Shown here: in pieces, positions 37,501 to 64,000 of the stretch
Layout: each line of letters begins with the position of its first letter
Position numbering within the stretch: the stretch's first letter is position 1
Origin: Polytrichum commune
Lineage: Eukaryota > Streptophyta > Polytrichopsida > Polytrichales > Polytrichaceae
Direction of reading: 5' to 3'
Assembly (NCBI GenBank): GCA_950295325.1
Contig: OX485809.1
Location: 9,300,001-9,364,000 of the forward strand
Length of the DNA stretch: 64,000 bases
Notes under the pieces: generated by a model
The model's database searches: none
The model's input: only the letters and a program-made list of their open reading frames with translations
Told to the model about the DNA's origin: nothing
Program-made: the position numbers and the translations under genes

Positions 37501-37774
37501 GAGAATGGCGGCTCAACATATTGAGGCAATCCAAAGAAGGAGAAAGATTACTTTCGACAAACGACATAAGAGAAGGGCCCTAATACCGGGAATGATGGTC
37601 ATGATTCAAGACGCACGAAAGCTTGAATTTCCGGCGAAATTCAATGCGGTATGGTTAGGACCTTACCTTGTCTATGAGGTCTTTCCTAATAATTCAATTC
37701 AATTGGAAACGTTGAATGGTGAGCTCTTTCCTACCCGTACATCGGGAAGTAGATGTAAGGAGTACCGAGCTTGA
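31535..37774 (+). CDS. Gag-Pol polyprotein, Ty3/gypsy
   Basis: A single frame of 2079 residues. The order is: a proline-rich PPIPPIPP run (110-126); the Gag domain with a YEWYRDHAEG-type core (about 150-310); a CCHC zinc knuckle (432-445) and a second variant Cys/His knuckle (517-529); an aspartic protease with DGGSS (852-856) in place of the commoner DTG/DSG; reverse transcriptase with WVSPMVLVKKKNG, MPFGLCNAPATFQ and FVDD (1374-1377); RNase H with Asp1522, the Glu in TTERECLA and Asp1590. Integrase has an HHCC finger (H1730, H1737, C1768, C1771) and the D1800, D1861, E1897 triad with exact D-35-E spacing. No chromodomain follows. All catalytic residues are present and there is no stop or frameshift, so this copy may still be functional. 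The first Met was taken as start; Met102 is an alternative. Confidence 0.95.
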   Translation: MQGRTRSQKPSLIVGLEKSTRKRRSSKISDRLEQDNVRIESCLNVEPRTRSILDTLELGAQLEEEITPSKLSGETSSENYTLREEFPVEVDRGLLNSSPVTMAEERGMDPPPIPPIPPIPPIPPIDPLVRPRGLPIVVPQNLAAMDMPSHLPKFYGTKDEDPSRHMERYIERLASFLITDPGYWLVWFPTTLEGEAYEWYRDHAEGHFRGWEQLQREFLNEFRPEVGQSTALRALSSLKQGREEEISAYIRRFDLVCTRFVGTMLNDDMLKQFFIQGFFKSGTIRGVLERNPLTLADAKRAARDIENLDKDHERLWRREDELIPQFIPIRPRVVAVEPAKYENQIPYAIVYTGPRPLAVREPAPLLALPAPRTDPHLEEVERRLGASQLGFQEAMIKQMQSLTDQMSLMIRSQQPGPPPPVESGRHSSGLWCVQCGQPGHTRQFCRSGQNRDQRGNGNPPQQNQRGQAPPHYGNGSNRGPQPRGQGGKNLEKKEFHPFCGRWHAQGQCWSEGQEFNCSNCGGSHPSDTCRQPDKIINVPYPVANPQQQARDNMRGARPQGVPANELRPPNLYYDHSNARQTFHPPVGLQTTTGYIPIQNRQGVPPNVSNGRQAPPTDPGPSNSQDVRFMDGVLEATCDDMLPLPTKIGEEQSQWPPHTNAITYELVKGKGVVEEAPALAVTTRARRGDAPLEVGIGEQGNYSSDEEINLSELDRVARRATKDVERENIILQDRERTNAVHDLDNSDVGEWEGPGVPVDEFDVVGNSKVERSTGYDLWADLSTLKADITFGQLLEISPTARKTLKEGMPVHKRMRKVKAKIAARIQSQGGRDVKAIEIEVVIVDKVVPNVLVDGGSSLNILPEDTMKKLGLGLTGPSPLVINMANQSSTTPLGMIKDCRMTTGGEEYLVTFHVIKMHSNKDTFPILLGRPWLRMANAMVNWGGPKPSITYGPEGNRVIVSIGSLEGWMKKEMYLPLEKEIDDLNENEIGKALVGVVHPEGQRVVIDSGSGSLGPNFYNYGDNGDYAQWLREYPESEVDVMVTFHQVGLGSEFPSVSLGEGSLLEPCEVLTEEEWVSGGLTPWVDDVEEGEVSLIHVDGTQEEDVIIESSKLEEPLHFKTTSTGIVVGQDVKDYPNVPSDWYRNKEEQAHVSEADWRYVDVKLKDGKTRQMKMGSKLGEKEVREYSNLVDEFSDTFAWSYDELKGIPREMVEHRIPLIPGARPIRQKERRMNPQLQLLVKAELERLLKAGFIKPVEITDWVSPMVLVKKKNGKLRVCVDYRKLNSCTQKDHFPLPFITLLLEEVGGHSRYTFMDGYAGYNQISIALQDIHKTAFTTPWGTFVWVVMPFGLCNAPATFQRLVMYIFTDLLFKCMTVFVDDFSTQSNVDDHLHCVREALVRCRKMRLALNPDKTFLGVNKGVLLGYVVSEKGREPDPDKIAAISDLATPTNSKGISKLLGHVGWYRELIPNFSKIAVPITHLLKKDVKFEWTDACQKAFEELRDRLSTYPVLIPPNWGKPFHVYCDASNVAIGSALCQATGEKEKDQPIAYASKQLTPAERNYSTTERECLAMVFSVKKFRHYLMCNPVVFFVDHMAIKYLINKAELSSRLARWVLLLEEFDYTVEYKPGRMHLQADHLSRLSEEIGKNPVNDMLVDDSLFVVTSTPEWYAGIVEFLTTHKLPKEWTKEERRKVRVNSRQFVVVGHRLFRRGSDGILRRCVSKTEVEAILIACHDSACGGHFAGQLTGQKILRAGYFWPTLFKDAHDYVRKCDACQRYARDDLRMEMPLHVSLPLIPFEKWGIDYVGEVHPQSSKEMKYIVVATEYLTKWAEAKAVKTDTAEHAATFMYENIISRFGVPKILVSDRGTHFLNDLIREMTEKFKIDHRKTTPYHPQTNGQTERVNGILVSILRKTVIDSKRDWDTKLTAALWAYRTTYKVTTRATPFFLVYGLEATLPIEYEVESLRVAVSTRLTESQSLRNRLTDLEALDEGRRMAAQHIEAIQRRRKITFDKRHKRRALIPGMMVMIQDARKLEFPAKFNAVWLGPYLVYEVFPNNSIQLETLNGELFPTRTSGSRCKEYRA

Positions 37775-39084
37775 CTAGGCAACTTACCCTTGGAGCAAGA
37801 GATGTTTGGATTCATCCCCCGATGGTCGCCAATTATGTGAGCCCAAAAGGGTGCCCACATTTAGTCTTAGACCCTTGAAACGTTAGTTGATGCACTTTGA
37901 AGTAGCATGTTACTTCATAAAAATATAAAAAGAGTGAAATGTTAGTCTTAGAAGTACCATGTTGTAAGAGGCTAGGATGTGAGTTGTTATTGTGTTTTTA
38001 CCTTCGGAAGGATTTGAGTGAATGAGGATAGGTAAGGAGAACTTGGATTGAGTAGTTAGTGAGTAGGCTAGTACAAATGGATGGAGACAACCAAAGTGAC
38101 TCAAGAGGCAAGTGCATTCGAATTGGGATGAATGGAGGATCACATGGAGCGCACAAGTGGACCACCTCATCATGGCCACTTAATGGGGAAGGCCCAAGGA
38201 AGAATGCAAGGTGGAGGATAAGCAAATTCTCAAAGCACCAATCAAATCACGAGTTAAGCATCGTGGTTTGAATTAAGTGGTGAGCGACGATTTGGGAAAG
38301 TAAGGGGAGAAAGTTATGGCGGCGGAAAGCGAAGGAGGCTAAGTTTGGGTTGAAGCATTCCAAGTTTGGTAAAGTGTGGTAGGTAGAAAGCCAAGGCTAG
38401 TTAAATGTTCGAATTAGGATCCTTGTTGATCATTTGAGGGAGGAAGACTTAGAAGATAGGATTGGCGCCTACTAAGTAGGAGGAAATCTCAAGGGCTTAT
38501 CGTGAGCCTTGAGGGTGCTCACCCCCTCAAGCTTACTATATAATCCCTCATTCTTCCCTCACTCATCCTCTCTTTCCTTTGTGCTCCAAGGCACCCCACG
38601 AGTTATAAGTGTGGGTGTGGGAAGCCATATTGGAGCACATGTGTGTGCTTAGTTTTTAGTTTGAGAGCCAAGGCTTGTTAGCCTTGAAGAGGGCTTGACC
38701 TCTTGGTAGAATTAGTGTTGACGTGAAGGATTTTAAAGTTAATTCATGATTCCAATTTGTGGTACTTAAAGTTCATGTTTTGAATACACGTGGTTGCAAG
38801 TTCCATGTTTAAGAGTTGAGCACTTGATGTTGTGATGAGTGCAAAAATATACTTGTGTGGATTAGTTAGTCTTAGTGAAGTTAGGAAATTCTCTCTCTCC
38901 CTCTCTTCTCTAGGAAGTTGAGCTCTTAGAGCTCGGGAAAAAATGTGGAATTAGGTAGGGGACTTAGTGGGATTAGTGGAATTAGGTAGGTGAATTAGGG
39001 GGAGGCCTTGGAGAAGCTCTCTTTTGTTCATTTTCTGGTTTTTGTGGTTGAGGGTGGAGAAACTTAGTTAGAAGTAGCCGCAGC

Positions 39085-39335
39085 TAAGGAGCTGGGTTTA
39101 TGAAGGAGCTGGGTTTATTTAATTAGAAGTAAGGAGCTGGGTTTATTTAGTTAGAAGTAAGGAGCTGGGTTTATGAAGGAACTGGGTTTGTTTAGTTAGA
39201 AGCTAAGGAGCTGGGTTCATGAAGGAGCTGGGTTTATGAAGGAGCTGGGTTTGTTTAGTTAGAAGCTAAGAAGCTGGGTTTATGAAGGAGCTAGGTTTAT
39301 GTAATTAGAAAGTAAAGAGATGGGTTCATGAAGGA
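39085..39335 (+). repeat. LTR minisatellite, 3' LTR copy
   Basis: The same 17-bp GGAGCTGGGTTTATGAA-based array as in the 5' LTR but with more units, mixing Tttatttaattag-like and TTTGTTTAGTTAGAAG-like spacers. Confidence 0.8.
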
Positions 39336-39563
39336 GCTTAGTAGATAGCCTACCTAATTAGCTCATAGACAAGTAGTTAGTTACATTATGCTAGTTAGTG
39401 TTATGTGTGGCTTTCACAAGTAAATGTATTTGAGATTGACTATAGAGAATAGTGTTTTTTTTTAACACTTGCATCCTCTCTTTAAAAATAAACCACGTGC
39501 ACAACTTAATGGAGAATGTGGAGCACTCTCGCGATGGCAAGACAAAGGAAGCAAAGACCAAAG

Positions 39564-39898
39564 GTGCGAGGGAGAGATTGACATAAGTCACATAAGTATT
39601 TCTTAATACTTAAAGGCTTATGTACGGTATGGAGACACCAAGTGAGACCTCTTATAGTAGCGATACGGAATACACAAGTGATAGTTCAAGTGGTAGTATA
39701 GAGTCAACGGCACGGACTCCATTTAGGAGAGGGATATCCTTAAGGGCTTGTGTAGCTAAAGCAGCCGGATGGACGTTAGAAGCAAACAAAGACAAAATAG
39801 CACCCGAGCATAAGGAGGTTAAAATAACATAATTAACTTGTGCATTCTCCACATACGTATTGAAATCGTACATTGAGTTGTTAAAAGTGAAATTCCAG
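39564..39898 (+). other. 335-bp segment present only in the 3' LTR
   Basis: Aligning the LTRs, ACCAAAG joins directly to TTAAATCC in the 5' LTR, whereas this segment separates them here. It begins with a perfect small hairpin (AAGTATT-TCTT-AATACTT near 39595). It holds a 70-codon frame (39620-39832) with a Ser/Thr-rich acidic first half and a basic, Ala-rich second half. I do not recognise the peptide. No target duplication or inverted ends are clear, so it may be an insertion here or a deletion from the other LTR. Confidence 0.7.
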
Positions 39899-40035
39899 TT
39901 AAATCCAAGACCACTTGAAGGGTGAACCTTGTACTATGGACTCATCCAAGTCCAAATCCAATACCGCGGAGGAATGTGAGCCCAAACCCACTACTCGGAC
40001 TACGGACGCTTAAGGGTGGGGGGTTTGGCCTCACA

Positions 40036-40388
40036 CCCTTTCACCAACGGCGCCACAAGTCCTGGGTGTCACTCCGGGGTCCCCCTTGTGCCCATGGTGT
40101 TTCGGGCACTCCTCATGGAGAGGTGCGCGACACACACCTCCGATTGAGGTGTTTTTGAACATTCTAGAATCTACATGCCATAAGCTAAGCATAGCTCGTG
40201 GCCTTACCCTTGTGCCCCCTAGTCTCCGTGGGTGGGAGGCGTTCCCAACGCCCGCGGCCCTCACCCACACTAGGATCACTTGGGCCCTCTCACCAACGGC
40301 GCCACAAGTCCCGGATGTCACTCCGGGGTCCTCCTTGTGCCCATGGTGTTTTGGGCACTCCTCATGGAGAGGTGCACGACACACATGC
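40036..40388 (+). repeat. Tandem units of about 257 bp, continuation after the Ty3 element
   Basis: CACCAACGGCGCCACAAGTC and the following block TCACTCCGGGGTC occur at about 40042 and again at about 40292. The minus-strand 131-codon frame across it is simply the repeat read in one frame. Confidence 0.75.
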
Positions 40389-48889: not shown

Positions 48890-51685
48890 TAGGGTTGGTA
48901 AACGATTCATTCCAACTGTATCCCACTAGACTAATTTGAGGCCTTTTAGACCATTTGGATTGTATTGTCTAAACATAGAGTAAGGTAAGCGTACCAACAA
49001 CCGATGAAACAAGCAATCATCAAATTTTGTATTATGAATAAAGTCCAATTTATATCCAGTTTGTTTTCTTTGCAAGACCGAGAGGATTGCAATGCGCTAA
49101 AGACCACATGTATTAAGACTAATAATACTTTAAACCCTTGATGACCACACGTATTAAGACTAATAATACTTTAAACCCTTGATGACCACACGTACATAGT
49201 ATCAATGTGATTGTATGCATTAAGGGTTTGAAGTTTTGTAGGCAATGTAAATCCAACACCTATATTTTCAAACGTATCTGTTGAACAAGCTCTCTAGATG
49301 TTGGTTTTGGGTATATTAATTTTTATATATGCATGCTATAGAACAACCGATTGTTATGTTTGTCACCTTCCCAAGAACAAATTTACGTAAAAATCACAAG
49401 ATTCTAGCCACTTCTTGGATGCGCATGAAAGCCTCACAAAAGCTTGAAACATCACCGTATGATGCCTTGATTTTCAACACCATCATGTGGCTAGCGGAGA
49501 AGGTTTATTAAGTGGCGTGGGAAGCTTTGCGTGACTACGGTGTCGCATTGAGTGGCAAAGAATCTTGAAGGATTTGGAAGAAATCTCCCCAAATGTGGCC
49601 TATCATGATTACCCGGGCGTGTTTGACTCAATTTGGTGTAGCAAAGGTCTCATTGTCACTCAAGATAGTTTTGATGGTTGCTTGGGAAGTTACACCTACC
49701 GTGAGGATCGTCACTTGATTTCCTTGAGGGACCATTGTGGGGTCCTTTTGGTTGTTTTAAACTCTTCTTGCAATTGAATGTTCAATTTGGACCCAAAATA
49801 GATGAATCAAATCATCACCTCGCTACGGATCACAAGACTTTGAAGTCTTCAAGAGGACATGATGATCTTTCACATGCACAACACTTGAAGTATGTGTCTT
49901 GTGTTTTGATACCAAACTGGCCTAGATATTGTTAGTTATAGTATATGGGTGTTTCTACTTTCCTCCATTTATATGGTGGATTTTTTTTGGCCCTTGTTGT
50001 GATTGGTACGAGTGTGCATTTTATAGACATGATCTAGGAGCACTTGAGATATATATATATATAGGCAAAATACGCGATTGATGTTCAACTAACTGGATTA
50101 GCTGACTAGAGGTGTGCAAATAGGTCCACAAAAAGAGGATGCATGTCATTTTATTTGGCCTTGACCCTTAACTTCCCACGCCCAATTTCTCTCAAATTTG
50201 TCCAAAAAATGTGACCTCAATTTTATTGACTGTAGTTGAAGATCTATAGATGTTTGCAAGTTAGAGGTGACTACTATCAATCCAAATTTGAAACGTTGAA
50301 ATTTTGTTATGTAGGACATTACAATAAGAATGTCAATAATGCTCTTGAAGGGCAACATTTTAGAAATTATATTAGGGTTGATTTCTCGATCGAACCTCCA
50401 CTCAAATCATCACCAAATGACAAAATGTTGCCTTCATTTAAAAGAGAGGCAATATACTTACTCAAATCAACCCACAAAGTTCTTGAAATCATTATTTTGT
50501 GATTTTTGAGGAAGCTTTGAAATTTGAGGCAATAGTGTCACAAATGCGCACCTTCCATATGAATTTACACCCACCAACACATGCCCAACTACATCCTCCA
50601 ATGGTAGATGTTTGGGAAACAATGCAATTGAGTGGCGTGCAATTTTTCAAATTAATTGGGAACTATTTGCACACAAGGATAAATTTAAAAAAAAAAAAAA
50701 CATGTTTAGGAAATGTTGCCCCTACACTATAGAGGTGACAAATGTCAAGTAGGCATTTGTGGAATGGTTCCACCACAAACCAATTCAGAGCACACTCCCA
50801 TATTTTAATTACTTAACAAATAATTAATATTGTTGAGTCAAAATTATCCACGTGGCAAGACATAATAAACCTAAACATGGACAAAAGGAGTAGTTGAAAC
50901 AATTCATAACCCATTTGAACTGGTGTCAAAGGGGTCATAACGAATTGCTCAATGACCAGATTATGGTTCCATGGAATATTAGGGATCAATCTTGAACTTG
51001 AGTTGGAAGGGCAACCCTTATATTCATTTGTCTATTTTTAATATTTGTTGGGTGCAAATCAATCAATAAATGCAAGAGAATCAACCCTTCGCTTTTGAAG
51101 GAAATTTGTGTGGAACCTTTGCCTTCTTTCATGACATGAAGAAATCGCCCTTTTGAATCTTGGGTTTGGTTTTAGGCATGGGAAAGGACAAAGGTTTCCT
51201 CAACAATGGTCTTTAGAGCATCTCCCGAAGGCTCATGCGCCTTCAAATTGGACATGGTGATGGAACATGAGCTAACCCTAGACTTGCAATATGGCACACC
51301 TGAAGTGGAGACCAAAGAATACCTTGACCCATAGATGTCATTGGGGACATAATGTGTCCTTGCTTTGGTCACTGCCATAATCACATCAATGTTGAATTCC
51401 TTCCTTTGTGGGTGTGACAAAATATAGCTACCTACGATTGATATCATTGTGAAATTGAAAATTGTAAGGGCACCCAAATTTGAAGATTATGTGGGCATGC
51501 AAGTTTGGAGCACATCATAGTTATTTGTAAAGTGTAGGAGTTGAGACCAGGGATTAAGTTCTAAACCTTGAGAAAACCTTGTGTTAATTTATGAGAATTA
51601 ACACAAAAGTTATCCAAGTTTTTTTGGTGCTAAAATTATCAAACAAAAAGAGTAGTGTTGGGCTATTGAATTTTGGTTTTCTAAT
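48890..51685. other. AT-rich DNA without a confident gene
   Basis: Several adjacent plus-strand frames between 49329 and 50732 (60-88 codons) look somewhat protein-like but switch frame and contain stops. I recognise no family, so I do not call them. A 41-bp tandem duplication lies at 49102-49183 and a TA run at about 50049-50062. Confidence 0.4.
49102..49183. repeat. 41-bp tandem duplication
   Basis: Two copies of GACCACAYGTATTAAGACTA plus the following block ending CCCTTGAT, differing at one base. Confidence 0.9.
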
Positions 51686-51879: not shown

Positions 51880-52110
51880 TTCGGACCTAGTGACCGGGAG
51901 ATTTTTGGGCATAATCGATTGAGACCCTATTATATGCAAGTCCAATCGGTTACACATTGACATCCTCCGGTTTTCCTGGGATAAATCAAGGTATATTTTA
52001 TAAATTCCTCTAAAATGATTGGTAATTTTTTCAATCTTGAACTTCAACCGGTTATTTCTGAAACTCAACCGGTTCATCTGCAACTAACTGCCGGTTCTCC
52101 CCGATCATAG
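51880..52110 (-). repeat. Dispersed CCGGTT-type repeat, copy D
   Basis: On the minus strand it has AACCGGTTGAGTTTCAGAAA, then AACCGGTTGAAGTTCAAG, and closes with ATCGATTATGCCCAAAAATC. It lies between two hairpins of the GCCCACAC family. Confidence 0.7.
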
Positions 52111-52154
52111 TTCAGACCTTGGACAACTAACCAACTAATTCAACTATTATAGGC

Positions 52155-52225
52155 CCCGCACACATACTAGTGGTGGGCGGCAGTGAATGGGCGAACACCG
52201 TTCGCTGCCACCAGTATGTGTGGGC
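52155..52225. repeat. Hairpin 2 of the GCCCACAC...CTGGTGG family
   Basis: The arms GCACACATACTAGTGG and CCACCAGTATGTGTGGGC pair across a GAATGGGCGAAC / GTTCG-containing centre. It is closely related to hairpin 1, in inverted order relative to it. Confidence 0.7.
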
Positions 52226-52346
52226 ATGTCTTTGTTTTATCTTAACTCTGGCCTCCTATCACTTTTGCATCTCAACTTTGATTCTCAAACATCAATTGAC
52301 AATTTTGAGTTCATCCATTTGCCAAAACCCTACCTTCTCTTATGAT

Positions 52347-52769
52347 GAAATATTGTCTTGGGATGATTGAAATTTGGATGAAAGTTCACTTGGTAAGTGA
52401 TAGTAATTGCAACACTATGAATCTATATTCCCCTATAAAAATAACAAGGAATGACCCATAATGTTGGGTTGACATATAGTGTTGGTAACAAGTAACCGCA
52501 GTTTACAATTAGTATTTGGCTAAAAAATGATACTCTTAGTTAAATGTTGTAGCAATATGTAACTCCAAATGGTAACCCACACATATTAGACAAAATAGTG
52601 TAATTGTAAACCGCCCATGTAGTTTCACTGACACTAAGTGTAAACCAAACATCATTTGTTATTCCTTCTAAAAAAGGAAATTAGACATTATAGGTTTACA
52701 TTGTTGCAATTATTGCCACTTATTAGGTGAATTTTCATCCAAATCTCAATCATCCATGACAACATTTCT
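52347..52769. mobile_element. Inverted-repeat element of about 420 bp
   Basis: The left arm (GATGATTGAAATTTGGATGA and on through AATTGCAACA, about 52347-52415) pairs with the right arm (about 52690-52769) over roughly 80 bp with scattered mismatches. The centre holds the words GTAAACC and GTTTAC several times. Ends and target duplication are not clear. MITE-like; class unknown. Confidence 0.6.
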
Positions 52770-53019
52770 TAATATGAATTTTAGGATGCAGAATATACCA
52801 AAGGTGGATGAACCAAAAGTAGCTTGTGGTGGTGATATTTGCACTAAACTTATTCATACGAAGTGTCAATAAAAAAAGTTACCACATGTGACATAAAATA
52901 CCATATGATACTAAAATAAAATATTTAGTAGTAGTTGAGATATACTTTTAGTTTTAAAATGTCACTTCATTTTAGGAAAAATGAACCAAGTTCGTTTCAT
53001 TGTCAAAAACAGACAAGAT

Positions 53020-53205
53020 AATTCGGGCCAACCAGTTACATGTTGACATCCTCCGGTTTTCCTTTATTAAGTTGGGGTATATTCTATAAATTCTTGTAAC
53101 ATGCTCGGTAATTTTCATGCAGTCTTGAACTTCCACCAGTTATTTCTCAAAATCATCCAGTAGTTTTATAACTAACTACCGGTTCTCCCCAATCGTAGTT
53201 CACGA
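53020..53205 (-). repeat. Dispersed CCGGTT-type repeat, copy E
   Basis: On the minus strand it has the order GAACCGGTAGTTAGTT, a GGTGGAAGTTCAAGACTG block, GGAAAACCGGAGGATGTCAA and TGTAACTGG, the same order as copy D. Like D it is followed on the plus side by a hairpin-rich GC segment. Confidence 0.65.
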
Positions 53206-54001: not shown

Positions 54002-54106
54002 TGTCGTGTAAACTAAGATCATTAAACACAACAGATCGAGTGTCGTTGTCAACATCAATTAGCAAAATAAAATAGCAAACTAAAATGCTAAACAACCACC
54101 TCTTCA
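54002..54106 (-). repeat. 105-bp direct repeat, outer copy (R2)
   Basis: On the minus strand it begins TGAAGAGGTGG and ends ACACGACA, so it has TG..CA ends. It differs by one base from 54543-54647; the two are 436 bp apart. Beyond it the sequence no longer resembles the inverted copy at 63.5-64 kb that can be compared. Confidence 0.8.
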
Positions 54107-54205
54107 AGATGAGGGTTTCTCTCTCCAAGCTGAAGAAACTAAAATGTCTCCTTACAAAGCTTAAGAAACTCTAAAATTCACACACAAGAGTCAAACTATC
54201 TCTCA

Positions 54206-55168
54206 CTCCACGAAGGGAGAATCCAAGAGTGCAAGTGGTGGAGAAAGAATGCAAAGGCTTTACTCATAATCTACTACACCATAGCCATGAGAAAGCAACA
54301 ACAAGCTCTCTCTCTCTCAAAACACACTCACAAGACTTGACTTGACAACAATGACAAGTCAAGAGGCCTTCCTCTCCATACAACCCCAATCCTATGTGGA
54401 GTTCATCCATGGAGTGGATGAACAACTAACTAGGACTCCCAACGGAGTCCGTTACTCATCCCAACACACATGGACTCCTAGTGGAGTCCATTTACTCCTA
54501 AATTGACGTGACTTAGCCTCCGATGTCACCTCATGTGACAACTGTCGTGTAAACTAAGATCGTTAAACACAACAGATCGAGTGTCGTTGTCAACATCAAT
54601 TAGCAAAATAAAATAGCAAACTAAAATGCTAAACAACCACCTCTTCAAGTGTCCCCACTAGCAGATAAGGAGCCCCTCCAATCGGCTAGGAACAAACACA
54701 CTCATCGATAGAGTTGTTGAACATGATGAAGTTGTTGCTACATCTATACATATTTAATTGGGTAGTAGTAATCGAAGGAATTAAACTCGTAATTGACAAA
54801 GTAATCCAAGAACTGTAGGCTGGGTACAATGTGAGCCCCATCCTTAATCGCCTTCAACAATTAATGTTGAATTCTTGGATAACTCTTTCAATGTGGTCTT
54901 AATTCCATAAAATTTCCAACCAACTAAATAACAACTTCACCACTAAAACATGTGGTAAACATCCACAAAATTCTCAATCATGACCATTAACGGCCACGGA
55001 ATGAGAGGCTTTCCGACAACGAGGATAAACCCAATTGCCAGAAGGAAGAGTAAAAAGGGGAGGTGTCAAACATGCCATGTGCCATCCACTTTGACATTGG
55101 TCGTACAATAACATTGTTGCAGCTCCTTTCTTCTCTCCACAAACATAACAAGGCAAACCCTGTGGTAC
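54206..55168 (-). repeat. Inverted arm, left (about 960 bp)
   Basis: Its reverse complement aligns with 63033-64000 almost without gaps and with only scattered, mostly transition, differences. It contains the PHD-coding end, the non-coding 3' region and the inner 105-bp repeat. It includes two short GGACTCC-nnnn-GGAGTCC hairpins. Confidence 0.9.
54543..54647 (-). repeat. 105-bp direct repeat, inner copy (R1)
   Basis: Same TG..CA-bordered sequence as 54002-54106. The inverted copy of the element has it at about 63554-63658. It could mark the start of the 3' LTR, since GTGGGGACAC stands just before it, or be a duplication inside the LTR. Confidence 0.8.
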
Positions 55169-55357
55169 AACCGCCAACTCGGGATGCACAGAGCCGTCGA
55201 TGGGAAGGTGACATGGAGCACAATTCTTTGAATGCTCACGACATTCCCGTCCATCCTTGCCTTCAAGCAATAATATACCACTTGGCAAGACATTTTTTAC
55301 CCGCAAAATCGTGCGCCCAGCCTTGACATCCAATGTCGTAGGCGCCTCCCGTTGCAA
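54974..55357 (-). pseudogene. C-terminal part of the polyprotein: linker and eroded PHD finger
   Basis: The frame is shifted by one base from the integrase frame. About 60 residues continuing the integrase C-terminal region (APTTLDVKAGRTI onward) lead into a PHD finger starting GLPCYVCGEKKGA. PHD fingers bind two zinc ions with a C4-H-C3 pattern and usually read histone H3 tails. Here the third cysteine (LLYDQC) and the seventh (WVYPRC) are Tyr, so one ligand of each zinc site is lost and the finger should not fold. The inverted copy at 63036-63228 keeps both as Cys. The protein ends SHSVAVNGHD in both copies, so this is the true C-terminus. The separate start Met shown by the frame is incidental. 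Confidence 0.85.
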
Positions 55358-56172
55358 GTAAACATAATCCCCTTGGAAAATCTACGAACCTGAGGTCGAT
55401 AAGCTCCACTGCGGATCCGGGCATACCGTAATGTATCACGATGTTGAGCAATATTCAAGTTCTCCATAGCCATAGGCATGGCCTTTTGGAAGAACGTTGC
55501 TTGGTCATGAAGACATTGAGCCCAAACATCTGGATCATCCAAGTTTACCACGGGAGCCAATTTCTCTCGCACTGAGCTAGGTAAAATTGGTTCCCGTCCA
55601 TACAAGAGTTGGTAAGGACTATAGGATGCCAAAGATGTTTGCTTGCTGAAACGATAACCCATTGCTATCCATGGTAACATCAAGTCCCAATCGCGATGGT
55701 TGCCATGAAGCAATCCATACTTCCGCAAACCGCGCTTAACCGTCTGAACAACTCGTTCAACTAAGCCATCTGCCTCAGGGTGATCTCTGGAAGTTGTCCG
55801 ATGATCAATCAAAGCCTTGGTACACAAAGCCTCGAAAGATCCAAGGAATTCTCTCCCTTGACCCGTCAACACCTCTGCAGGTGCTCCAAATCGTGCCAAA
55901 ACTCGATCAAGACATGCCATAGCCGCCAATTCTGAGGAATTTTGGGGAAGAGCCACGAGTTCAATCCACTTACTAAAATGCTCCACCATCACAAACACAT
56001 ACTTGGAACCACGTGGAGTGATAGTAAGCGGTCTGGCAAAATCCAAAGACCAACGATATCCCAAGCCCATAATATGTAAAGGCTGAAGTTGAGGTGACAA
56101 AGTATTAAAACTTGACCTGACCCGGTCACATACTTCACACCGAGAAACATAAGTGGCAACCTTTTGATACAT
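55297..56172 (-). pseudogene. Integrase segment, catalytically altered
   Basis: The frame continues the polyprotein after the TAA at 56190-56188. The CxxC of the zinc finger (CEVC, residues 12-15) pairs with an HEELGH motif before the stop. The DDE core has the first Asp in SLDFARPL (residue 44) and the Glu in GLVERVVQ (residue 140), but the second Asp is Gly (LTGQGREF, residue 104, codon 55863-55861). The residue 104 to 140 spacing is the expected 35. Without that Asp the enzyme cannot join cDNA to the chromosome. The GYRFSKQTSLASYSPYQLLY stretch is the usual post-core region. The frame then leaves the correct reading at a run of four Cs (55369-55372) and ends in unrelated residues. Confidence 0.88.
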
Positions 56173-56187
56173 ACCAGTCCACCAATA

Positions 56188-56646
56188 TTAGTTGCGCAAC
56201 ATAGAGTGCGTCCTTCGCACTCCAAAATGTCCAAGCTCCTCGTGCACTTGCCGCACCAAAGAATTTCTTTGATCTGGCCTTGGAACGATGCATCTCGTTC
56301 CGTTCGGCCACACACGAAATAACAAGCTGTTTGTCCAACGAAACCTTGTTATCCGGTGACTAACTCTATCTCGCTCCATAGCAGATAGTCCAAGAGGAAA
56401 TATCCCGTGTTGAAGTTTGTGCAAGACCGCCTGGTCTTCCCACACATCACTAACAACGAGAGATTTATCAACCTCCTCATCTTGTTCTTCTACAAGGATC
56501 TCAGCAGCCAATCCCGACATCATTGTGAGATATGTGGCAGCATGCCAACCCGGAACTGCCTCACGATCACAATTTCCATGCCACCTGGCTCCAGTTAAAT
56601 CCTCATCTGAAGGACTTGGATTGCGAGACAATCCGTCTGCATCCAA
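56188..56646 (-). pseudogene. RNase H to integrase linker with HH of the integrase zinc finger
   Basis: Same frame as its neighbours, bounded by TGA (56658-56656) upstream and TAA (56190-56188) downstream. It starts with DADGLSRNP, the conserved word that ends the RNase H/connection region, and finishes with VHEELGHFGVRRTHSMLRN, the histidine half of the HHCC finger. The 5' stop stands where the family normally has a Gly or Lys codon, and the 3' stop is one C-to-T change from CAA. Not a separate gene. Confidence 0.85.
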
Positions 56647-56655
56647 GTTGGCAAT

Positions 56656-58104
56656 TCATGCTCGGTGAACAACTTCAAAATCATATTCCTGAAGTAACAA
56701 TGCCCACCTAGCAAGTTTCCCGGTGAGCTTATCTGATTCCATAAGCCATTTTAAAGGCTGATGATCAGTCACCAAAGTAAACTTTTGCCCATACAAATAA
56801 GGTCGAAAATGTGCAATGGCCCAAACGGCCGCCAAGGCCTCGCCTTCATAAGAAGAATAATTAGATTCAGTACTATTATTGCTTCTAGATGCATAAGCCA
56901 CCACATATTCCTTTCCCTCTTTATTCTTCTGTGTCAATACCGCTCCCAATCCCACTGCACTCCAATCCGTGTGCAATTGAAAAGCTCTAGACACATCCGG
57001 GCGTCGAAGCACTGGCGCTGAACCGAGCCTCTGCTTCAATGTATCAAATGCCTGTTGTTGTTCCCGACTCCAAATCCATGATTGGTCTTTCCCCGTGAGA
57101 ATGGTAAGAGGTTTGGCAATCAAACTAAAGTTTTTGACAAACCTCCTATAATAATTTGCCAATCCTAGAAATGCACGAAGCCGTGGTACATCACTAGGTG
57201 CGGGAATTTTGTGCAAAGCATCCACCTTCGCTTGTTGCACACCAAGACCGCCAGGAACAATCATATGGCCTAAATAGGGTAATTGATCATGGAAAAACTT
57301 ACATTTTCCATGATGTAAACGGAGTCCCCACCGTTGAAGTCGTTCAAATACAGCTTGCAAATGTCTCACATGATCATGTGGACTATTACTAAAGATGATA
57401 ACATCATCAATGTAACATCTAGCAAACGGCAAACCAGCCAATAATTGGTCCATCACCCGTTGAAATTCAGCTGGTGCATTCTTGAGACCAAATGGCAGAA
57501 ATTTCCAATGATAAAATTGATCTTTGCCATCTTTATCAATTCCCCAAAATGCGGTCTTCACCCAATCACCCAACAACAAAGGTAATTGGTGATAACAAGA
57601 CCTCAAATCCAGAGTGCTGAAGATTCTAGAAAATCCCAGTGCATCAAACAACTCCTCCGGCATTGGCATTGGATATCGATCCGACTTGGTCTTGCGGTTG
57701 ACTGGACGATAATCACCACACATCCGTTTTTCCGTCCAGTTGCCAAAAATATCCTTCTTTGACGGCATAACCGTGGCACAAGCATACTCTCCATTGGAGA
57801 GTTCAATCAATTCCGCTGCCAATAACTCTTGACATCGAGTTTGAACACCCAACCTTTCAGATGCACTAAGTCTGTACGGCCGTCTGAAAATAGGGTGGTC
57901 GTCCTCGAGTTGAATACAAACAGGTTTACCTTTATATCCTTCAAGATCATGAAGACTAAAGGCAAAACAATTACGGTAAGAGCGAATAAATGCCCGTACC
58001 TTTCGTGCTTCGGCACCAGTAAGCTTTGGCCCCACTTCAATTGGCCAATCGTCAAACTCCGTGGTTTCCTTCTTCATAGAAGGATTGCCACTTGGTGCCA
58101 GCAC
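56656..58104 (-). pseudogene. Reverse transcriptase and RNase H segment
   Basis: 482 residues in the polyprotein frame, between a TAG (58119-58117) and a TGA (56658-56656). Reverse transcriptase motifs are CGDYRPVNRKT, STLDLRSCYHQ, FLPFGLKNAPAEFQ and the catalytic YIDD (231-234). The thumb and connection follow with FLGLANYYRRFVKNF. RNase H has Asp380 (HTDWSAVGLGAVL), the Glu in SSYEGEALAA and Asp447 (VTDHQPLKW). The motif set is Ty3/gypsy-like, and this stretch looks undamaged internally. The segment would copy the RNA into cDNA and remove the template. The Met at the start is not the true N-terminus, since the frame runs in from the methyltransferase region. Confidence 0.92.
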
Positions 58105-58116
58105 AGCCTGTGATTG

Positions 58117-58647
58117 CTAGTCCGTGGAGAGGGCAACACCTTTGCCCCCATCATCTGCACTTGAATCCAAATGCGTATCCTCTCCACTACAATCGGTTTG
58201 TGTAGCTAAATAGCTACCCACATATGAAGTATCACCAAGAAATAGAAGTGGAAACATTTTATGGGCCTCCAACTTCCCAAACTCTTGGGCCAAAGCCGAA
58301 AAAACACGTTGGGCTCGAAGCTCTTCCGCAACATGAAGTTTCAAAGGAAATAATCCCTCGGTGTCATTGACCTCAATGTGATCCTTGGATTGCGGCTCCA
58401 TTGCCTCCTGACCATTGTTCTCTGCCCTCAGAGTAAGCAATTGGTCATCCATACGTTGTTGAGCAGCAAGACAAATTCCAATTATCCACACAATGCTGTT
58501 AAAATCCATAGCTTGTCCCAATAGGAAACGTCTCTGACCTTCCTGAAACCCGTGAGTAGCCGTGGTACCTGTAAGAAAACCCATGGCGCGTTCCCGCTCA
58601 TCTGCCGTTGGCTGCTCATAAGTTTGGGATTTTGAATCCCAAACCAT
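58117..58647 (-). pseudogene. C-terminal part of the DNA methyltransferase, then a spacer
   Basis: Same frame as the upstream segment, after a TAG (58680-58678) and a TGA (58665-58663). Residues 17-64 carry the last methyltransferase motifs: ERERAMGFLTG (the ERVFGFP-type motif IX region) and RRFLLGQAMDFNSIVW (motif X, usually LGN-x-V/M). About 110 acidic residues with no recognised domain follow up to the TAG at 58119-58117, which is one C-to-T change from CAG. This shows that the methyltransferase domain is complete in the ancestral protein and is split here only by two nearby stops. Confidence 0.85.
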
Positions 58648-59433
58648 GCCAGGTCCACGAGATCAAAATGCAAAAGACTATGGATATGTCACAAAAGTAG
58701 GTAGTGCACCTCTCGGAATTCCCACCTTGTTAATTAATGCAAATGGCAAGGTGTCACCCTTGGTAACTGCCAAGGAAACACGATGATCATCTAAAATGTC
58801 ATCCACTTTGCGATCCATAAGGCGGGGAATGCGGGCAATCGCCGCTGAAAGCACCCGAGGTGATACCAAGTTGGTCCAAAACCAACGAGGCCGATAAGCA
58901 AAGGATCCCAAAGATGCAGCATCCAGAAATGTTGGAGTACCCAGAATTTGGTTAATGTACTCACCATCCTTCACCACTTTGTGCCGGGTATCACCCAATA
59001 ATGGTACATTTTCGAAAATGTACCCCGGCGGAGTTGATTGGTGGGTAAACCACCATTGCGTCAATCGCGTCAAATCCGCAAACAAACTAGACCTAGGATC
59101 ATCCAATCCCTGGCCAGTTCCTGCCCGCGAATGGCCTTGACAAGGCCATCCTGCAATAATCAAATCCACGTGGCCCAACCTTCTCAAATCCTCATCACTA
59201 ATCATAGTGACATCTTGAGGAAGTTGACCACAGCATCCATGAATGACAGAGGCTGACAATTGTGCGGGGTATCTCAACAACAATTGTTGGATGTGGTGTC
59301 GGACGGCTCTGTTGGCTGCATACCCATTGTCCACATGAATATATCGCCACACTGTAATTCCAGCTTCCAACACTGCCGCCAAACCTGTGCCAATGCCTCC
59401 AAAGATCACCACAAGGACAATACCTTCAGGTGA
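58455..59433 (-). other. C5 DNA methyltransferase domain (extent)
   Basis: The domain lies between the protease and the reverse transcriptase, in frame with both. It runs from motif I (around 59400) through the catalytic PCQ (codons 59145-59137), ENV (about 59013-59005) and RPRWFWTNL (about 58893-58867). Two stops follow (58680-58678 and 58665-58663), then motif X (about 58500). At about 300 residues it is the size of a minimal catalytic domain, and I see no separate target-recognition insert of the DNMT1/CMT type and no chromodomain. Confidence 0.87.
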
Positions 59434-62214
59434 CGGTTGCCAACGAATGGGTTGAGCAAAAGAAAATGAGGATGAAGTTGGAGGTGCCTCTCCAAGCTCC
59501 AAATCCGCTACAATGTGTTGACAATGGTCGGATAACTTCTTAGGAGTTCGCCATGGTGGAGATGGATCCTTGAAATGTCGAGCAGGAATTTGAAAAGATG
59601 GTAAAAATTGTTGTTCTGCCGCATTACAAGTGTAGTCCATTGTTTCCTCCAATAAAACTGGAGCACAAGGCAAATCTGCAACTGAACCGCTGCAACCAAA
59701 CATTGCCTCCGCAACCATAGTCATAGCAGGGGCTGCAAATGTGACGGGAATAAATACCTTCCTGCCATCTCCAGTGGACCATCCCGGTCTAATCCATGCC
59801 TCTTCCGTCCAATTATCCAAACCAAAGCCAAGTGGGTAAAGAGCTTGCTGACCAACAAGTATATCATAGTTGGTAGCATTAGTAACAACACACTTCATTG
59901 ATAAATGAGTGTAAGTAGGCCCTACCCCCACATGAAAAATCAAACGTAGAGGTGCCTTGGTGTAACCTGTTGCACGTTCAGTGCCCCCTACTGAAGTCAC
60001 AATAGTAAATGGACAAGGATCCAAGCTTGCTGGCGTCAATCCAAGACTGTCAGCAAGTCCTTTGCCAATCATAACCGGTTGAGCACCGGAATCCATCATA
60101 ACTCTCAGTGGTGTAGCACGGATAGTGGGCATATCCGTGCGTGAAACGACAAACAGAGATTTGTCGTTCATCAGCCGTACAACTCCAGGTTGCAAATTAT
60201 GGCGTTCGCGAGCAGGCCTTGCAGAAATGTCTGCAAGATATGCCGCTCCCGAAGCATAATTCGAAAATGACGTATCCACTGCTGAAATTGATGCTGGAGG
60301 AATATCAGCTTGCTTACCAAAAGCAATGATCGCCGCATCCGCAAGACTCGTTCGCAAATTGGCTAAGTTTTCCACCTCCTCAGCCACAAGTACGTCAACC
60401 ACAGCTTGGGATACTTGAAGGGATGGCAAATCCGCCTTACCTTCTAACATTCTCCCAGCTAAATGAAAAACTGCAGCAGGCTTGAAATCCGAAGCCATAA
60501 ATTCCGAACCCGAGAAAATTGGCATATGGAGAATTTTATATGCCAATGCCTGTGTAACATCCTTCGAGATGGAATCCCCATCTCTCAAAGGTACAGGGTT
60601 TTTAGCCCCAACAACAGTGGTGTCTACCAATCCAAATGAAAGAGGTAAACGTGCTTGACCAATTTGATCAGTTGGTCCGGCATGGCGAGGATGTAGCACC
60701 TCGTTGCTACCACCACTCGTGGAAGCCACCGCATCTGCCAATGTTTGTGAGCGAGTAGAAGCCGCCGCCACCACCTCTCCGGCTGCTCCAAACATATACA
60801 TGTCCGAACCCGAGGTGCCACCACCCACATGCGGCTCAGAAATTTGAACAAAAGATGCAGAAGATTTGAGCTTTTGCTCAAGCTCTGCCACCTTAGCCTC
60901 AAGACTCTGCTCCCTTGGAGACTTTCCAGTGACATAACTGGTAGGCCGCATCTCAGGATGAAGTTGGAAACAATGATCCACATCGTGATTAGTGCCACCA
61001 CAATGGCTACATTTCAATTGTCTCTTCTTAGAATTGTCCCCAGCCCTTACTGGTTCCATCTTTTGTTTTAATTTTCCCAAAGGCTGAGTTTTCTTCTTCT
61101 TAGGACAATTGGGATCATTCTTCGAATGACCAGCTTCTCCACAACCCCAACAATGCAAAATCTTTTGCTCCTTGACGGGTTGAGTCTCAGCTAAACTACT
61201 AGTAGCTGTGACAATTCTTCTTGGTTTCGGACTCTCTGTCATCCAAGATACCATATCCATGGCATCATGTTGGCAAAGAGCTCGATCACATCTCTCAACC
61301 ACGGCAAACGCTTGTGCAAGCGTAACTCGGTCCTCGTAGTCGAGGATAATCCGAGGTGATGCCAACTCAAGTAGCCGCTTGTCAATCTTAGACAAAAAGA
61401 TTTTAACAAGCTGACTCTCAGCAAAAACACCTCCCGACTCCACAGCAAATCGCGCGAGTCGCGTACACATGGTCCGTGGAGTATTATCCTTCTCTCGGCG
61501 GAAATCCTGGATGCGCTGCATCTGGTCTCGCCGAAACCCACCATACTCCACTTCCAAATGTGCGACAAATTCAGTAAGGGGGTTAAACGGAGGTGGTGGA
61601 CCAACAGCCGTCAATGCTGCCTGTGTAGCACGTGCCACCCGTGAAAGGGTTGCCGTGCTACTGCTAGCCACCATTGGCCCAAGTGCCAGTTCCGTGTCCT
61701 TAGACTCCGCCGACGATTCCTCCTCCTTTAAGGTGGGTGGAGCTAAGGTAGCAACCGCCTCATCCTTAAGGGCTGAAATGAGCTCAACCCGAGCCTCCCA
61801 ATACTGCTCCACCTCCCGAAGTTGTCGTTGATGACCCTCTGTCCAGCGTTCATAAGTTTGGAGTGCCTCATACTCCAAATATTGAGGCAGAAGTTCAAAG
61901 GCATACCAATCATTGAAATTGGAAGACCTTTGGCGTTTCTCCTTAATCCAGGTACGAAACCGGAGTTTCCAATCGGGCAAGGAAATGCCCCCAGCTCGAC
62001 CTGAAAACCGATCACGCACTGAATTGTGACGATCGTCCTCCATTTCGTCGAACGTGCCGACACTCCAAATCCGAAGCCTACTAGTAGTATCCAACGCCGA
62101 AATAGGCTCAAAAGCCTCGTTGGTATCTACCTCTGGCTCAAGATTTGTGGTGTCCACGTCCTCCAAGTAATCTGGTGATGGAGATCGATAATATCGACTC
62201 CTAGTTTGCACCAT
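58678..62214 (-). CDS. Gag, protease and DNMT3-like cytosine methyltransferase
   Basis: 1178 residues. Gag occupies about 1-350 (SLPDWKLRFRTWI near 78-90). Two zinc knuckles are at 355-371 (C-x2-C-x4-H-x6-C) and 402-415 (CCHC, x2-x4-x4). A short coiled coil is at about 436-452. The protease has MDSGAQPVM (707-715) and the second conserved block YDILVGQQALYPLG (783-796). From about 928 a C5 cytosine methyltransferase begins: motif I FGGIGTGLAAVLEAG, motif IV GWPCQGHS with catalytic Cys1025, motif VI IFENVP (1066-1071), motif VIII RPRWFWTNL (1108-1116). The last resembles the RARYFWGNL block of DNMT3, whereas PCQ rather than PCN is more usual in other families. Motifs are in linear order, unlike the rearranged plant DRM enzymes. 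The enzyme would transfer a methyl group from S-adenosylmethionine to cytosine C5 in DNA. The frame ends at a TAG just before motifs IX-X. I list it as a CDS because the segment is open throughout, but the copy as a whole is inactive. Confidence 0.9.
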   Translation of the reverse strand: MVQTRSRYYRSPSPDYLEDVDTTNLEPEVDTNEAFEPISALDTTSRLRIWSVGTFDEMEDDRHNSVRDRFSGRAGGISLPDWKLRFRTWIKEKRQRSSNFNDWYAFELLPQYLEYEALQTYERWTEGHQRQLREVEQYWEARVELISALKDEAVATLAPPTLKEEESSAESKDTELALGPMVASSSTATLSRVARATQAALTAVGPPPPFNPLTEFVAHLEVEYGGFRRDQMQRIQDFRREKDNTPRTMCTRLARFAVESGGVFAESQLVKIFLSKIDKRLLELASPRIILDYEDRVTLAQAFAVVERCDRALCQHDAMDMVSWMTESPKPRRIVTATSSLAETQPVKEQKILHCWGCGEAGHSKNDPNCPKKKKTQPLGKLKQKMEPVRAGDNSKKRQLKCSHCGGTNHDVDHCFQLHPEMRPTSYVTGKSPREQSLEAKVAELEQKLKSSASFVQISEPHVGGGTSGSDMYMFGAAGEVVAAASTRSQTLADAVASTSGGSNEVLHPRHAGPTDQIGQARLPLSFGLVDTTVVGAKNPVPLRDGDSISKDVTQALAYKILHMPIFSGSEFMASDFKPAAVFHLAGRMLEGKADLPSLQVSQAVVDVLVAEEVENLANLRTSLADAAIIAFGKQADIPPASISAVDTSFSNYASGAAYLADISARPARERHNLQPGVVRLMNDKSLFVVSRTDMPTIRATPLRVMMDSGAQPVMIGKGLADSLGLTPASLDPCPFTIVTSVGGTERATGYTKAPLRLIFHVGVGPTYTHLSMKCVVTNATNYDILVGQQALYPLGFGLDNWTEEAWIRPGWSTGDGRKVFIPVTFAAPAMTMVAEAMFGCSGSVADLPCAPVLLEETMDYTCNAAEQQFLPSFQIPARHFKDPSPPWRTPKKLSDHCQHIVADLELGEAPPTSSSFSFAQPIRWQPSPEGIVLVVIFGGIGTGLAAVLEAGITVWRYIHVDNGYAANRAVRHHIQQLLLRYPAQLSASVIHGCCGQLPQDVTMISDEDLRRLGHVDLIIAGWPCQGHSRAGTGQGLDDPRSSLFADLTRLTQWWFTHQSTPPGYIFENVPLLGDTRHKVVKDGEYINQILGTPTFLDAASLGSFAYRPRWFWTNLVSPRVLSAAIARIPRLMDRKVDDILDDHRVSLAVTKGDTLPFALINKVGIPRGALPTFVTYP

Positions 62215-62990
62215 AAAATAATCCCTTGAGTACCTGCAACTATCTACAAGGTAATGGCAACCTGCACCTGTTGCGGACTATCTAAATGGCAATACCTTGC
62301 CAAATGCCAAATGCTTATGCCCCCAGAATTCCAAAATTGTGCAAAGGTTTGAGATTGGTAATTAAAATTAAAAATCAGCGTTGAAAATGCTCATTTCCAA
62401 GGTGATTATGAACTCCAATCAACAAACTAAGTGCACCAATGGACTCCTAGGAAGATTTCACACAAATTAGGCTCAAATTTCACTCCAATCGGAGTTAATT
62501 TGCTCCCAAAAACAAAAATCAGCGTTGAAATTAGCAATTTCAGCAATGATTTTGACTTCCAATCAAAAATCCAATTACACCATTGGATTCCTTGGCAAAT
62601 TTCACACAAAATAGGCTCAAATTTCACTTCAATCGGAGCTAGTATCCCCCCAAATTTGAGCCTCAAAGTTTGTGACAATGAAATGCCAAATTTGAAAGTG
62701 AAAGTAAAAAATAAAATAAAATAAATCCGGTTTATTTAAAAAATAAAAACAATAAAACAATAAAACAATAAAACAATAAAACAAAATTAATTAATTAACT
62801 TAATTAACTTAAATGAATTAACTTAATTAATTGAATTTAACTCAACCTAACTTAATTAACTTAAACTAATGAACCTAATTAATTAAGTTAATCTAAGTTA
62901 ATTAACTAACCTAATTAACTAATTAAGCTAACTAACTTAATTAATCAACTTAAATTTAAGTCAAAGGGGGAGGCCAGGTCTTACCTTGAA
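62215..62990 (-). other. Leader of the methyltransferase element, with internal repeats
   Basis: There are two units of about 145 bp at roughly 62370-62665, sharing AAAATCAGCGTTGAAA, TTTCACACAAA and CACTCCAATCGGAG. An AAAAC run (62735-62785) and a 180-bp stretch built almost only of CTTAATTAA-like words (62785-62960) lie further out. An 11-base G run sits at about 62988-62998, at the junction with the inverted copy. No LTR end or clear primer-binding site for the minus-strand element is visible. Confidence 0.6.
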
Positions 62991-63032
62991 AAGGGGGGGG
63001 GGCCAGGCTGGCGCCGCCCGCCTTTTGTCAAG

Positions 63033-64000
63033 TTTACCACGGGGTTTGCCTTGTTATGTTTGTGGAGAGAAGAAAGGAGCTGCAACAATGTTATTGTGCG
63101 ACCAATGTCAACGTGGATGGCACATGGCATGTTTGACACCTCCCCTTTTTATTCTTCCTTCTGGCAATTGGGTTTGTCCTCGTTGTCGGAAAGCCTCTCA
63201 TTCCGTGGCCGTTAATGGTCATGATTGAGAATTTTGTGGATGTTTACCACATGTTTTAGTGGTGAAGTTGTTATTTAGTTGGTTGGAAATTTTATGGAAT
63301 TAAGACCACATTGAAAGAGTTATCCAAGAATTCAACATTAATTGTTGAAGGCGATTAAGGATGGGGCTCACATTGCACCCAGCCTACAGTTCTTGGATTA
63401 CTTTGTCAATTACGAGTTTAATTCCTTCGATTACTACTACCCAATTAAATATGTATAGATGTAGCAACAACTTCATCATGTTCAACAACTCTATCGATGA
63501 GTGTGTTTGTTCCTAGCCGATTGGAGGGGCTCCTTATCTGCTAGTGGGGACACTTGAAGAGGTGGTTGTTTAGCATTTTAGTTTGCTATTTTATTTTGCT
63601 AATTGATGTTGACAACGACACTCGATCTGTTGTGTTTAACGATCTTAGTTTACACGATAGCTGTCACGTGAGGTGACATCGGAGGCTAAGTCACGTCAAT
63701 TTAGGAGTAAATGGACTCCACTAGGAGTCCATGTGTGTTGGGATGAGTAACGGACTCCGTTGGGAGTCCTAGTTAGTTGTTCATCCACTCCATGGATGAA
63801 CTCCACATAGGATTGGGGTTGTATGGAGAGGAAGGCCTCTTGACTTGTCATTGTTGTCAAGTCAAGTCTTGTGAGTGTGTTTTGAGAGAGAGAGAGAGCT
63901 TGTTGTTGTTTTCTCATGGCTATGGTGTAGTAGATTATGAGTAAAGCCTTTGCATTCTTTCTCCACCACTTGCACTCTTGGATTCTCCCTTCGTGGAGTG
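63033..64000 (+). repeat. Inverted arm, right (runs to the window edge)
   Basis: This is a second copy of the element's 3' end, in the opposite orientation to 54206-55168. It starts abruptly inside the linker before the PHD finger and continues past the window. Two perfect GGACTCC-nnnn-GGAGTCC hairpins lie at 63713-63730 and 63752-63769. The sequence TGGCGCCGCCCGCC just before the arm (about 63009-63022) begins like an aspartate-tRNA primer site, but the match is short. Confidence 0.9.
63036..63228 (+). pseudogene. Intact PHD finger in a truncated second copy
   Basis: The open frame from 62986 begins with unrelated residues; similarity to the first copy starts near 63036 and includes GLPCYVCGEKKGA, LLCDQCQRGWHMAC and WVCPRC. 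The C4-H-C3 ligands are all present: two CxxC pairs, HxxC, and a final CxxC, with the Trp two residues before the last CxxC pair typical of PHD fingers. The protein ends SHSVAVNGHD, as in the first copy. Integrase and everything upstream are missing, so this is a 5'-truncated fragment of another copy, although the finger itself could fold. PHD fingers usually recognise the histone H3 tail; the ligand here is unknown. Confidence 0.88.

Follow-up and report, generated by a model that had tools for sequence, protein, structure and literature searches.

Structure of the element

The window, a 64,000-nucleotide stretch of Polytrichum commune DNA, ends inside a retroelement about 10.3 kb in size that lies on the minus strand. 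Its limits are set by terminal TGTC...GACA, by a 4-bp duplication (AAGG) on each flank and by alignment to other copies. The features placed in it are as follows.

54002..64000, minus strand: whole element; 5′ end beyond the window at about 64296 (contig position 9364296)
63035..64000, on to about 64101, plus strand: the element's 3′ region, from the PHD part to A2, duplicated in inverse orientation close to the 5′ end
58120..62214, minus strand: ORF1, gag, protease and DNMT3-like methyltransferase; ATG at 62214
61105-61152 and 60970-61011, minus strand: two CCHC zinc knuckles of gag (sequence pattern)
60076..60102, minus strand: protease active-site motif DSGAQ (Pfam Asp_protease_2, E 3.3e-4)
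58465..59427, minus strand: DNMT3-like C5 methyltransferase domain (PF00145, E 2.5e-11; family profile); catalytic motifs present, interrupted by premature stops
58111..58119, minus strand: ORF1 stop and context, TAG CAA TCA, matching the type I readthrough consensus UAG CAR YYA
54974..58116, minus strand: ORF2, reverse transcriptase (RT), RNase H, integrase and PHD finger (Pfam; open frames in other copies)
56656..58116, minus strand: RT and RNase H part of ORF2 (PF00078, E 2.1e-30; PF17917, E 4.1e-39)
55747..56277, minus strand: integrase zinc-binding and core domains (PF17921, PF00665)
55010..55150, minus strand: C-terminal PHD finger of ORF2, in degraded form here (PF00628, E 1.3e-6)
54543..54649, minus strand: repeat B1, 107 nt, separated from A2 by two bases
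54109..54540, minus strand: repeat A2, about 432 nt
54002..54108, minus strand: repeat B2, 107 nt, the 3′ end of the element

The order is that of Ty3/gypsy elements, with gag CCHC knuckles, protease, RT, RNase H, a DDE integrase and a short target duplication. The knuckles of the window element gave no Pfam match at E 0.01, and the protease match (21.8 bits) is under the Pfam cut-off of 24.3. This copy is dead: ORF1 is broken by two premature in-frame stops between 58663 and 58680, and ORF2 by several premature stops and a frame change; in intact copies ORF1 is a 1386-codon stop-to-stop frame and ORF2 is open for 1047 codons. The 5′ leader (62364-62651) holds two 144-nt tandem units that are 78% alike, followed by an AATTAA-rich stretch, and 41-nt tandem and 88-nt direct repeats lie outside the element (49102-49183 and 51942-53115). 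The window contains a second Ty3/gypsy element (28702-40286), with ordinary direct repeats about 9 kb apart and a single open gag-protease-RT-RNase H-integrase frame of 2086 codons (31514-37774); in contrast to its neighbour, it gave no Pfam match to a methyltransferase or PHD finger.

A DNMT3-like methyltransferase in the gag frame

An earlier note, made from the letters of the window alone, had proposed a retrotransposon carrying its own C5 DNA methyltransferase in frame between protease and RT. Every motif that it quoted is present on the minus strand.

Within 59371-59421, minus strand: FGGIGTG
59128-59151, minus strand: GWPCQGHS
59002-59019, minus strand: IFENVP
Within 58867-58899, minus strand: RPRWFWTNL
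Within 58567-58605, minus strand: MGFLTG
Within 58504-58533, minus strand: LLGQAMD
Within 57397-57417, minus strand: YIDD of the reverse transcriptase

Protease, methyltransferase and RT do share one frame, interrupted by the two ORF1 stops and by a TAG (58117-58119) between ORF1 and ORF2 that is present in other copies too. The domain had been placed at 58455-59433, which agrees well with a family profile matching from 59427 to 58681 and then, past the break, from 58659 to 58465. Pfam DNA_methylase scores 44 bits against a cut-off of 22, so the match is not due to chance; the proposal is supported, and a genome search found other copies in which the methyltransferase is unbroken. That first reading did not include four features described below: a PHD finger, a putative readthrough stop, split repeats and a second domain order.

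Searched against the PDB, the window domain matched DNMT3A best (E 1.8e-7), then DNMT3B/3C and then the bacterial enzymes HaeIII and HhaI; the family profile gave DNMT3A at 4.3e-15, DNMT3B at 2.5e-13, HaeIII at 5e-7 and 4onj, a plant DRM, at 1.4e-5. No chain named DNMT1 or CMT was present among the 43 PDB matches of the profile at E ≤ 0.001. Motifs I, IV, VI, VIII and IX-X stand in canonical order. A DRM identity was considered and rejected, the order not being rearranged as it is in two host genes. By these comparisons the enzyme is DNMT3-like, nearer to DNMT3 than to DNMT1, CMT, DRM or the bacterial enzymes. Across 67 retroelement methyltransferase domains, including four of this genome, conservation is 99% for the motif IV Cys, 100% for the motif VI Glu and Asn, and 99 and 100% for the motif VIII Arg residues.

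Among the host's own genes are two that are DRM-like (L050, L052) and a single DNMT3 whose coding sequence is spread over several exons (L051+L053). For seven element enzymes, identity is 25-28% to this host DNMT3 and 21-26% to a fish DNMT3, which puts them about equally far from both. In a tree with three cellular sequences (host DNMT3, fish DNMT3 and one host DRM), the 67 element domains all group together, separate from these; the printed support of this group is 61 following re-rooting, and the deep branches are weak. Recent capture from the host's own genes is rejected by the low identity and by this single grouping.

Copies in the genome and selection on the enzyme

The genome searched comprises 408 Mb in 64 contigs, with C1 to C7 measuring 42 to 78 Mb. 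All copy numbers are lower bounds taken from the best candidates, among which intact copies are over-represented, also in the stop-codon sample discussed below. The Pfam methyltransferase profile scored at least 123 places (best of 353 candidates), the window's own domain at least 150 (best of 512), and an RT search at least 144 (best of 1964), many of the last with an ORF2 of 1047 or 1048 codons. At 15 of the 150 places the match lies, free of stops, in a 1386-codon gag-protease-methyltransferase frame. Copies fall into subfamily A, 87-98% identical to the window (one place 75%), and subfamily B, at 62-63%.

The methyltransferase is under purifying selection, like RT-RNase H. We estimated dN/dS (Nei-Gojobori) from 18 copies, 16 of them with RT, which were chosen for a nearly complete open methyltransferase among the best-scoring places; this choice, with its excess of intact copies, lowers dN/dS somewhat. 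Within subfamily A the ratio was 0.315 for the methyltransferase and 0.37 for RT-RNase H (66 pairs each), and within subfamily B it was 0.256 (15 pairs) and 0.20 (six pairs). Between the subfamilies it was 0.13 (72 pairs) against 0.06 (48 pairs), about twice the RT value, with dS saturated (for the methyltransferase, undefined in 29 of 72 pairs; median 2.6). That the domain is a captured host fragment without function in the element, as the broken window copy might suggest, has a probability close to nil, being already contradicted by this selection, by the 99-100% conservation of catalytic residues in 67 domains and by several groups common to the methyltransferase and RT trees.

A conserved stop codon between the reading frames

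Beyond TAG CAA TCA, ORF2 continues in the frame of ORF1. In tobamoviruses, the sequence UAG CAR YYA serves as the type I readthrough signal (PMC3542737). TAG followed by CARYYA occurred in all 32 distinct other copies, that is, in 39 of 39 loci covering the site, seven copies being counted twice; nine further 5′ loci end short of the stop, and with L001-L030 taken from the top of the scores the sample leans towards intact copies. The hexamer was CAATCA at 25 loci, CAATTA at 11 and CAGTTA at three, varying only at the R and Y positions of the consensus. Synonymous sites are saturated between subfamilies A and B, yet both keep to the consensus, which argues strongly for selection on the stop context. 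We infer from this context that the ORF1 stop is read through, in which case the methyltransferase would be made at the level of Gag, whereas RT and integrase would reach a few percent of that level.

A PHD finger behind the integrase

In intact copies the PHD finger matches PF00628 at E 2e-10 (A) and 1.4e-10 (B), and its nearest solved relatives are the PHD fingers of PHF12, KDM5/lid, CHD4, UHRF1 and PHF21A. These read the unmodified H3 tail, which by similarity would be the ligand here as well. An integrase is matched in 153 related records; in 145 of them a PHD finger is matched as well and in eight it is not, a share biased upward because the query by which part of these relatives were retrieved itself contained the PHD. 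Chromoviruses, also of the Ty3/gypsy type, carry a chromodomain, a chromatin-reading module, at the C-terminal end of the integrase; the element described here differs from them in having a PHD finger in that place, together with a methyltransferase and split repeats.

In 44 of the 145 PHD-bearing records, more than 200 residues follow the PHD, often about 340-360 (e.g. P0063, P0055, P0071); the window element has no such tail. By eye, the tails of P0045 (1715-1755), P0063, P0055 and P0071 show DPWAG/DPFAG and SPW/PP-type motifs that resemble those of a second methyltransferase. Pfam gave a sub-threshold MethyltransfD12 match in P0045 (E 0.16) and no methyltransferase match in the tails of the other three.

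Split terminal repeats and target sites

We examined the ends of ten copies, including the window copy. Seven have the layout A1-coding-B1-A2-B2 (window, L036/37, L038/39, L042/43, L041/40, L046/47 and L049/48, the last two belonging to subfamily B), two have A-coding-B only (L034/35, L033/32), and in L045/44 the layout was unclear. Two equal direct LTRs were not found; the ends are A...B, with an internal B-A junction. This B1|A2 junction reads GACA-GC-TGTC, a perfect 10-bp palindrome, in L037, L039, L043, L040 and L047, and is one base off in the window and in L048. The elements begin with TGTC and finish with GACA. Exact 4-bp target duplications flank eight of the ten copies (AACG, GAAG, TTAT, TAGC, ACTT, TCTT, AAGG, GATG); that of L049/48 differs by one base and L045/44 gave no call. 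Besides gaps, A1 and A2 differ by 0, 1, 2 and 0 substitutions over 438-567 aligned bases in four subfamily A copies, by 0/334 and 14/336 in two subfamily B copies, and by 6/204 in the window copy. Some copies are therefore very young, and the window copy is older. The 0-2 substitutions and the exact duplications show recent, integrase-type movement of some copies.

These split repeats are of the DIRS/PAT type, but the tyrosine recombinase and missing target duplication of that type are not found, the element having an rve integrase and 4-bp duplications. In PAT and DIRS elements, the internal junction has been proposed as the template from which the ends are restored; by analogy, the internal B-A junction is likely to restore both ends here. 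In six copies inspected by eye, no TGG-type primer site directly follows A1. Inverted terminal repeats of the DIRS-1 type (862 nt) were considered and rejected, the 5′ inverted segment being found in none of six other subfamily A copies. In the window copy, the inverted duplicate (63035-64101) coexists with an intact target duplication; it possibly reflects a template switch in reverse transcription or a later conversion. L034/L035 and L033/L032 lack A2 and B2 and have target duplications; they may stem from B1 × B2 recombination or represent a second type of reverse transcription product. In L038/L039, an internal duplication of about 135 nt in repeat A is found in both A1 and A2, which therefore appear to share a template each round.

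Relatives and their domain orders

Methyltransferase-bearing relatives with a named host come from Marchantia polymorpha, Calypogeia fissa, Sphagnum fallax, Monoraphidium neglectum, Volvox africanus and V. reticuliferus, and thus from liverworts, a peat moss and chlorophytes; the named ones are mostly annotated as hypothetical proteins. These gypsy-type proteins carry a methyltransferase of the same family, accompanied by RT, integrase or PHD in records that extend far enough. Integrase-PHD without a methyltransferase match was seen in three Haematococcus lacustris records. P0077 carries the name of a bacterial bin (Spirochaetia) and is probably misbinned, and the TRINITY name of P0083 (EukProt) points to transcription of an ORF2-type relative somewhere. 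In an IMG/VR scan with the algal element P0037, no stretch matched its six patterns.

The best 120 of 328 integrase-PHD matches gave 115 new proteins, with the domain orders RT-IN-PHD (40), IN-PHD (29), MT-IN-PHD (22), RT-MT-IN-PHD (20), MT-RT-IN-PHD (two), RT-IN (one) and MT-RT-IN (one), where MT is the methyltransferase and IN the integrase. Those of 78 relatives from the methyltransferase search were MT only (33), RT-MT-IN-PHD (21), MT-IN-PHD (10), MT-RT (four), RT-MT-IN (three), RT-MT (three), MT-RT-IN (two), MT-IN (one) and MT-RT-IN-PHD (one). Records are often partial, and those with RT-IN-PHD may carry the methyltransferase in an upstream ORF, like the window element. In many relatives, Volvox africanus included, the domain lies between RNase H and integrase in a single ORF, whereas here it precedes RT.

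The two orders largely follow two groups of an RT-integrase tree built from 68 sufficiently long records and rooted on P0076 (methyltransferase before RT). One group contains all 34 records with the methyltransferase between RT and integrase, as well as P0169, an ORF without it; its support was lost in re-rooting. The other contains this element, P0091 and P0172, with the methyltransferase before RT, and 29 records with none in the ORF; its support is 0.986 without P0106 and 0.0 with it. The methyltransferase and RT trees have the groups P0050+P0053, P0064+P0069 and P0055+P0067 in common; their deeper branches are weak and in some conflict, P0037 adjoining the bryophyte group in one tree and P0070 in the other. 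The shared groups, together with the grouping by domain order, make the association look old, with the domain either moved once or captured twice; the trees do not separate vertical descent from horizontal transfer.

Comparison with known elements

The earlier note had pointed to such captures in a charophyte alga and dinoflagellates, and this precedent is correct (de Mendoza 2018, PMC5890265). The closest known element, compared by its description there and not by sequence, is KnitGypsy-Dnmt3 of Klebsormidium nitens, which is alike in its Gypsy domain set, in an intronless, un-rearranged DNMT3 within the polyprotein, in purifying selection and in A-coding-B-A-B repeats, described there as DIRS (PMC5890265). 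The element described here differs in that its methyltransferase forms part of a Gag-PR-DNMT ORF with TAG-CARYYA as its stop, in that its integrase ORF includes a PHD finger (the word PHD is absent from the main text of PMC5890265), and in its many copies in a bryophyte genome. SymbioDIRS-Dnmt3 and SymbioLINE-Dnmt of Symbiodinium are also retrotransposons encoding a C5 methyltransferase, and SymbioDIRS has split repeats and two domain orders, as here; they are described with tyrosine recombinase or LINE machinery, whereas this element has a Ty3/gypsy-type DDE integrase (PMC5890265).

Among the relatives listed, most of them nameless, no record bears the name Klebsormidium. The Gypsy type, the unrearranged DNMT3 and the A-coding-B-A-B repeats suggest that this element may belong to the lineage of the Klebsormidium one, and the chlorophyte and bryophyte relatives that this lineage may be old and shared. 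A 2019 paper states that such transposons are absent from land plants such as tracheophytes (PMC6338049), and the titles and abstract openings of the open-licence papers listed yielded no description of methyltransferase-bearing gypsy elements in bryophytes. Methyltransferase-bearing gypsy elements were thus far known from Klebsormidium.

Possible function

The explanation that we favour, by a modest balance of probability, is an autonomous Ty3/gypsy-type element whose packaged DNMT3-like enzyme methylates the element's own cDNA and whose PHD finger steers integration. The leaky ORF1 stop would yield a minor Gag-PR-DNMT-RT-RH-IN-PHD product by readthrough, with the methyltransferase produced in structural, Gag-like amounts and packaged with the RNA. 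The enzyme would then probably methylate the cDNA de novo, with CG as the likeliest target, ahead of integration or during it; fresh copies would land already marked and quiet, be tolerated by the host and perhaps escape foreign-DNA sensing; the PHD finger would probably direct them to chromatin without H3K4 methylation. SymbioDIRS DNMT3 domains methylated CG de novo in yeast, while the Klebsormidium gypsy enzyme showed no activity there, in a system in which human DNMT3B failed as well (PMC5890265). Self-methylation of the cDNA is put forward as the most likely function. Observed/expected CpG is 0.63-0.75 in the stretches of the element measured, against 0.53 in the rest of the window; being no lower, it gives no strong mark of self-methylation. 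Transitions between copies are enriched 1.5-fold at CG and not at CHG (1.04).

The enzyme could instead be a brake that benefits the host, silencing new copies so as to limit harm and keep the lineage alive, with no direct benefit to transposition. This has also been proposed (PMC5890265), and broad occurrence across green plants fits low virulence, but a group-level benefit is hard to keep against copies that lose the domain, and we consider a brake unlikely. An action on RNA, either the element's genomic RNA or a tRNA primer, in aid of packaging or reverse transcription, is improbable. It would suit an enzyme that sits in an RNA-binding Gag precursor, and the Klebsormidium gypsy and Symbiodinium LINE enzymes were without DNA activity in yeast, RNA methylation being proposed for the latter (PMC5890265); against it, the nearest solved proteins are DNMT3, which are DNA enzymes, no DNMT2 is present among the PDB matches listed, and SymbioDIRS DNMT3 enzymes methylate DNA at CG (PMC5890265). 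Equally, we see little chance that the enzyme works in trans, silencing rival elements or incoming viral DNA and so arming or protecting the host cell or the element: transposon methylases have been suggested to serve in defence (PMC6338049) and free enzyme made from ORF1 could act widely, but selection falls on the element, and a packaged fusion would act mostly on its own cDNA.

Implications

Combining self-methylation and PHD-guided integration with the distribution and the end structure leads to a broader reading, whose chances we put somewhat short of even. One ancient green-plant lineage, spanning chlorophytes, charophytes and bryophytes, would unite an integrase-linked PHD reader with a DNMT3 writer, and the element would thereby both select its silent chromatin state and write it itself. 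The methyltransferase would have been captured once, long before land plants, and later moved within the polyprotein to give the two groups. DIRS/PAT-style split repeats, a palindromic circle-like junction (GACAGCTGTC) and a DDE integrase occur together, and the replication route would therefore be unlike that of ordinary LTR elements.

DNA methylation is a main weapon against retrotransposons. That an element lineage has retained a de novo methyltransferase of its own under selection, probably from a time before land plants, suggests that self-marking can pay. The present findings extend the phenomenon from one charophyte and dinoflagellates to bryophytes and chlorophytes, and add a chromatin reader paired with the enzyme, a stop codon that would act as a switch for enzyme dose, and an unusual end structure. 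Marchantia is genetically tractable and has such elements, making the role of these enzymes directly testable.
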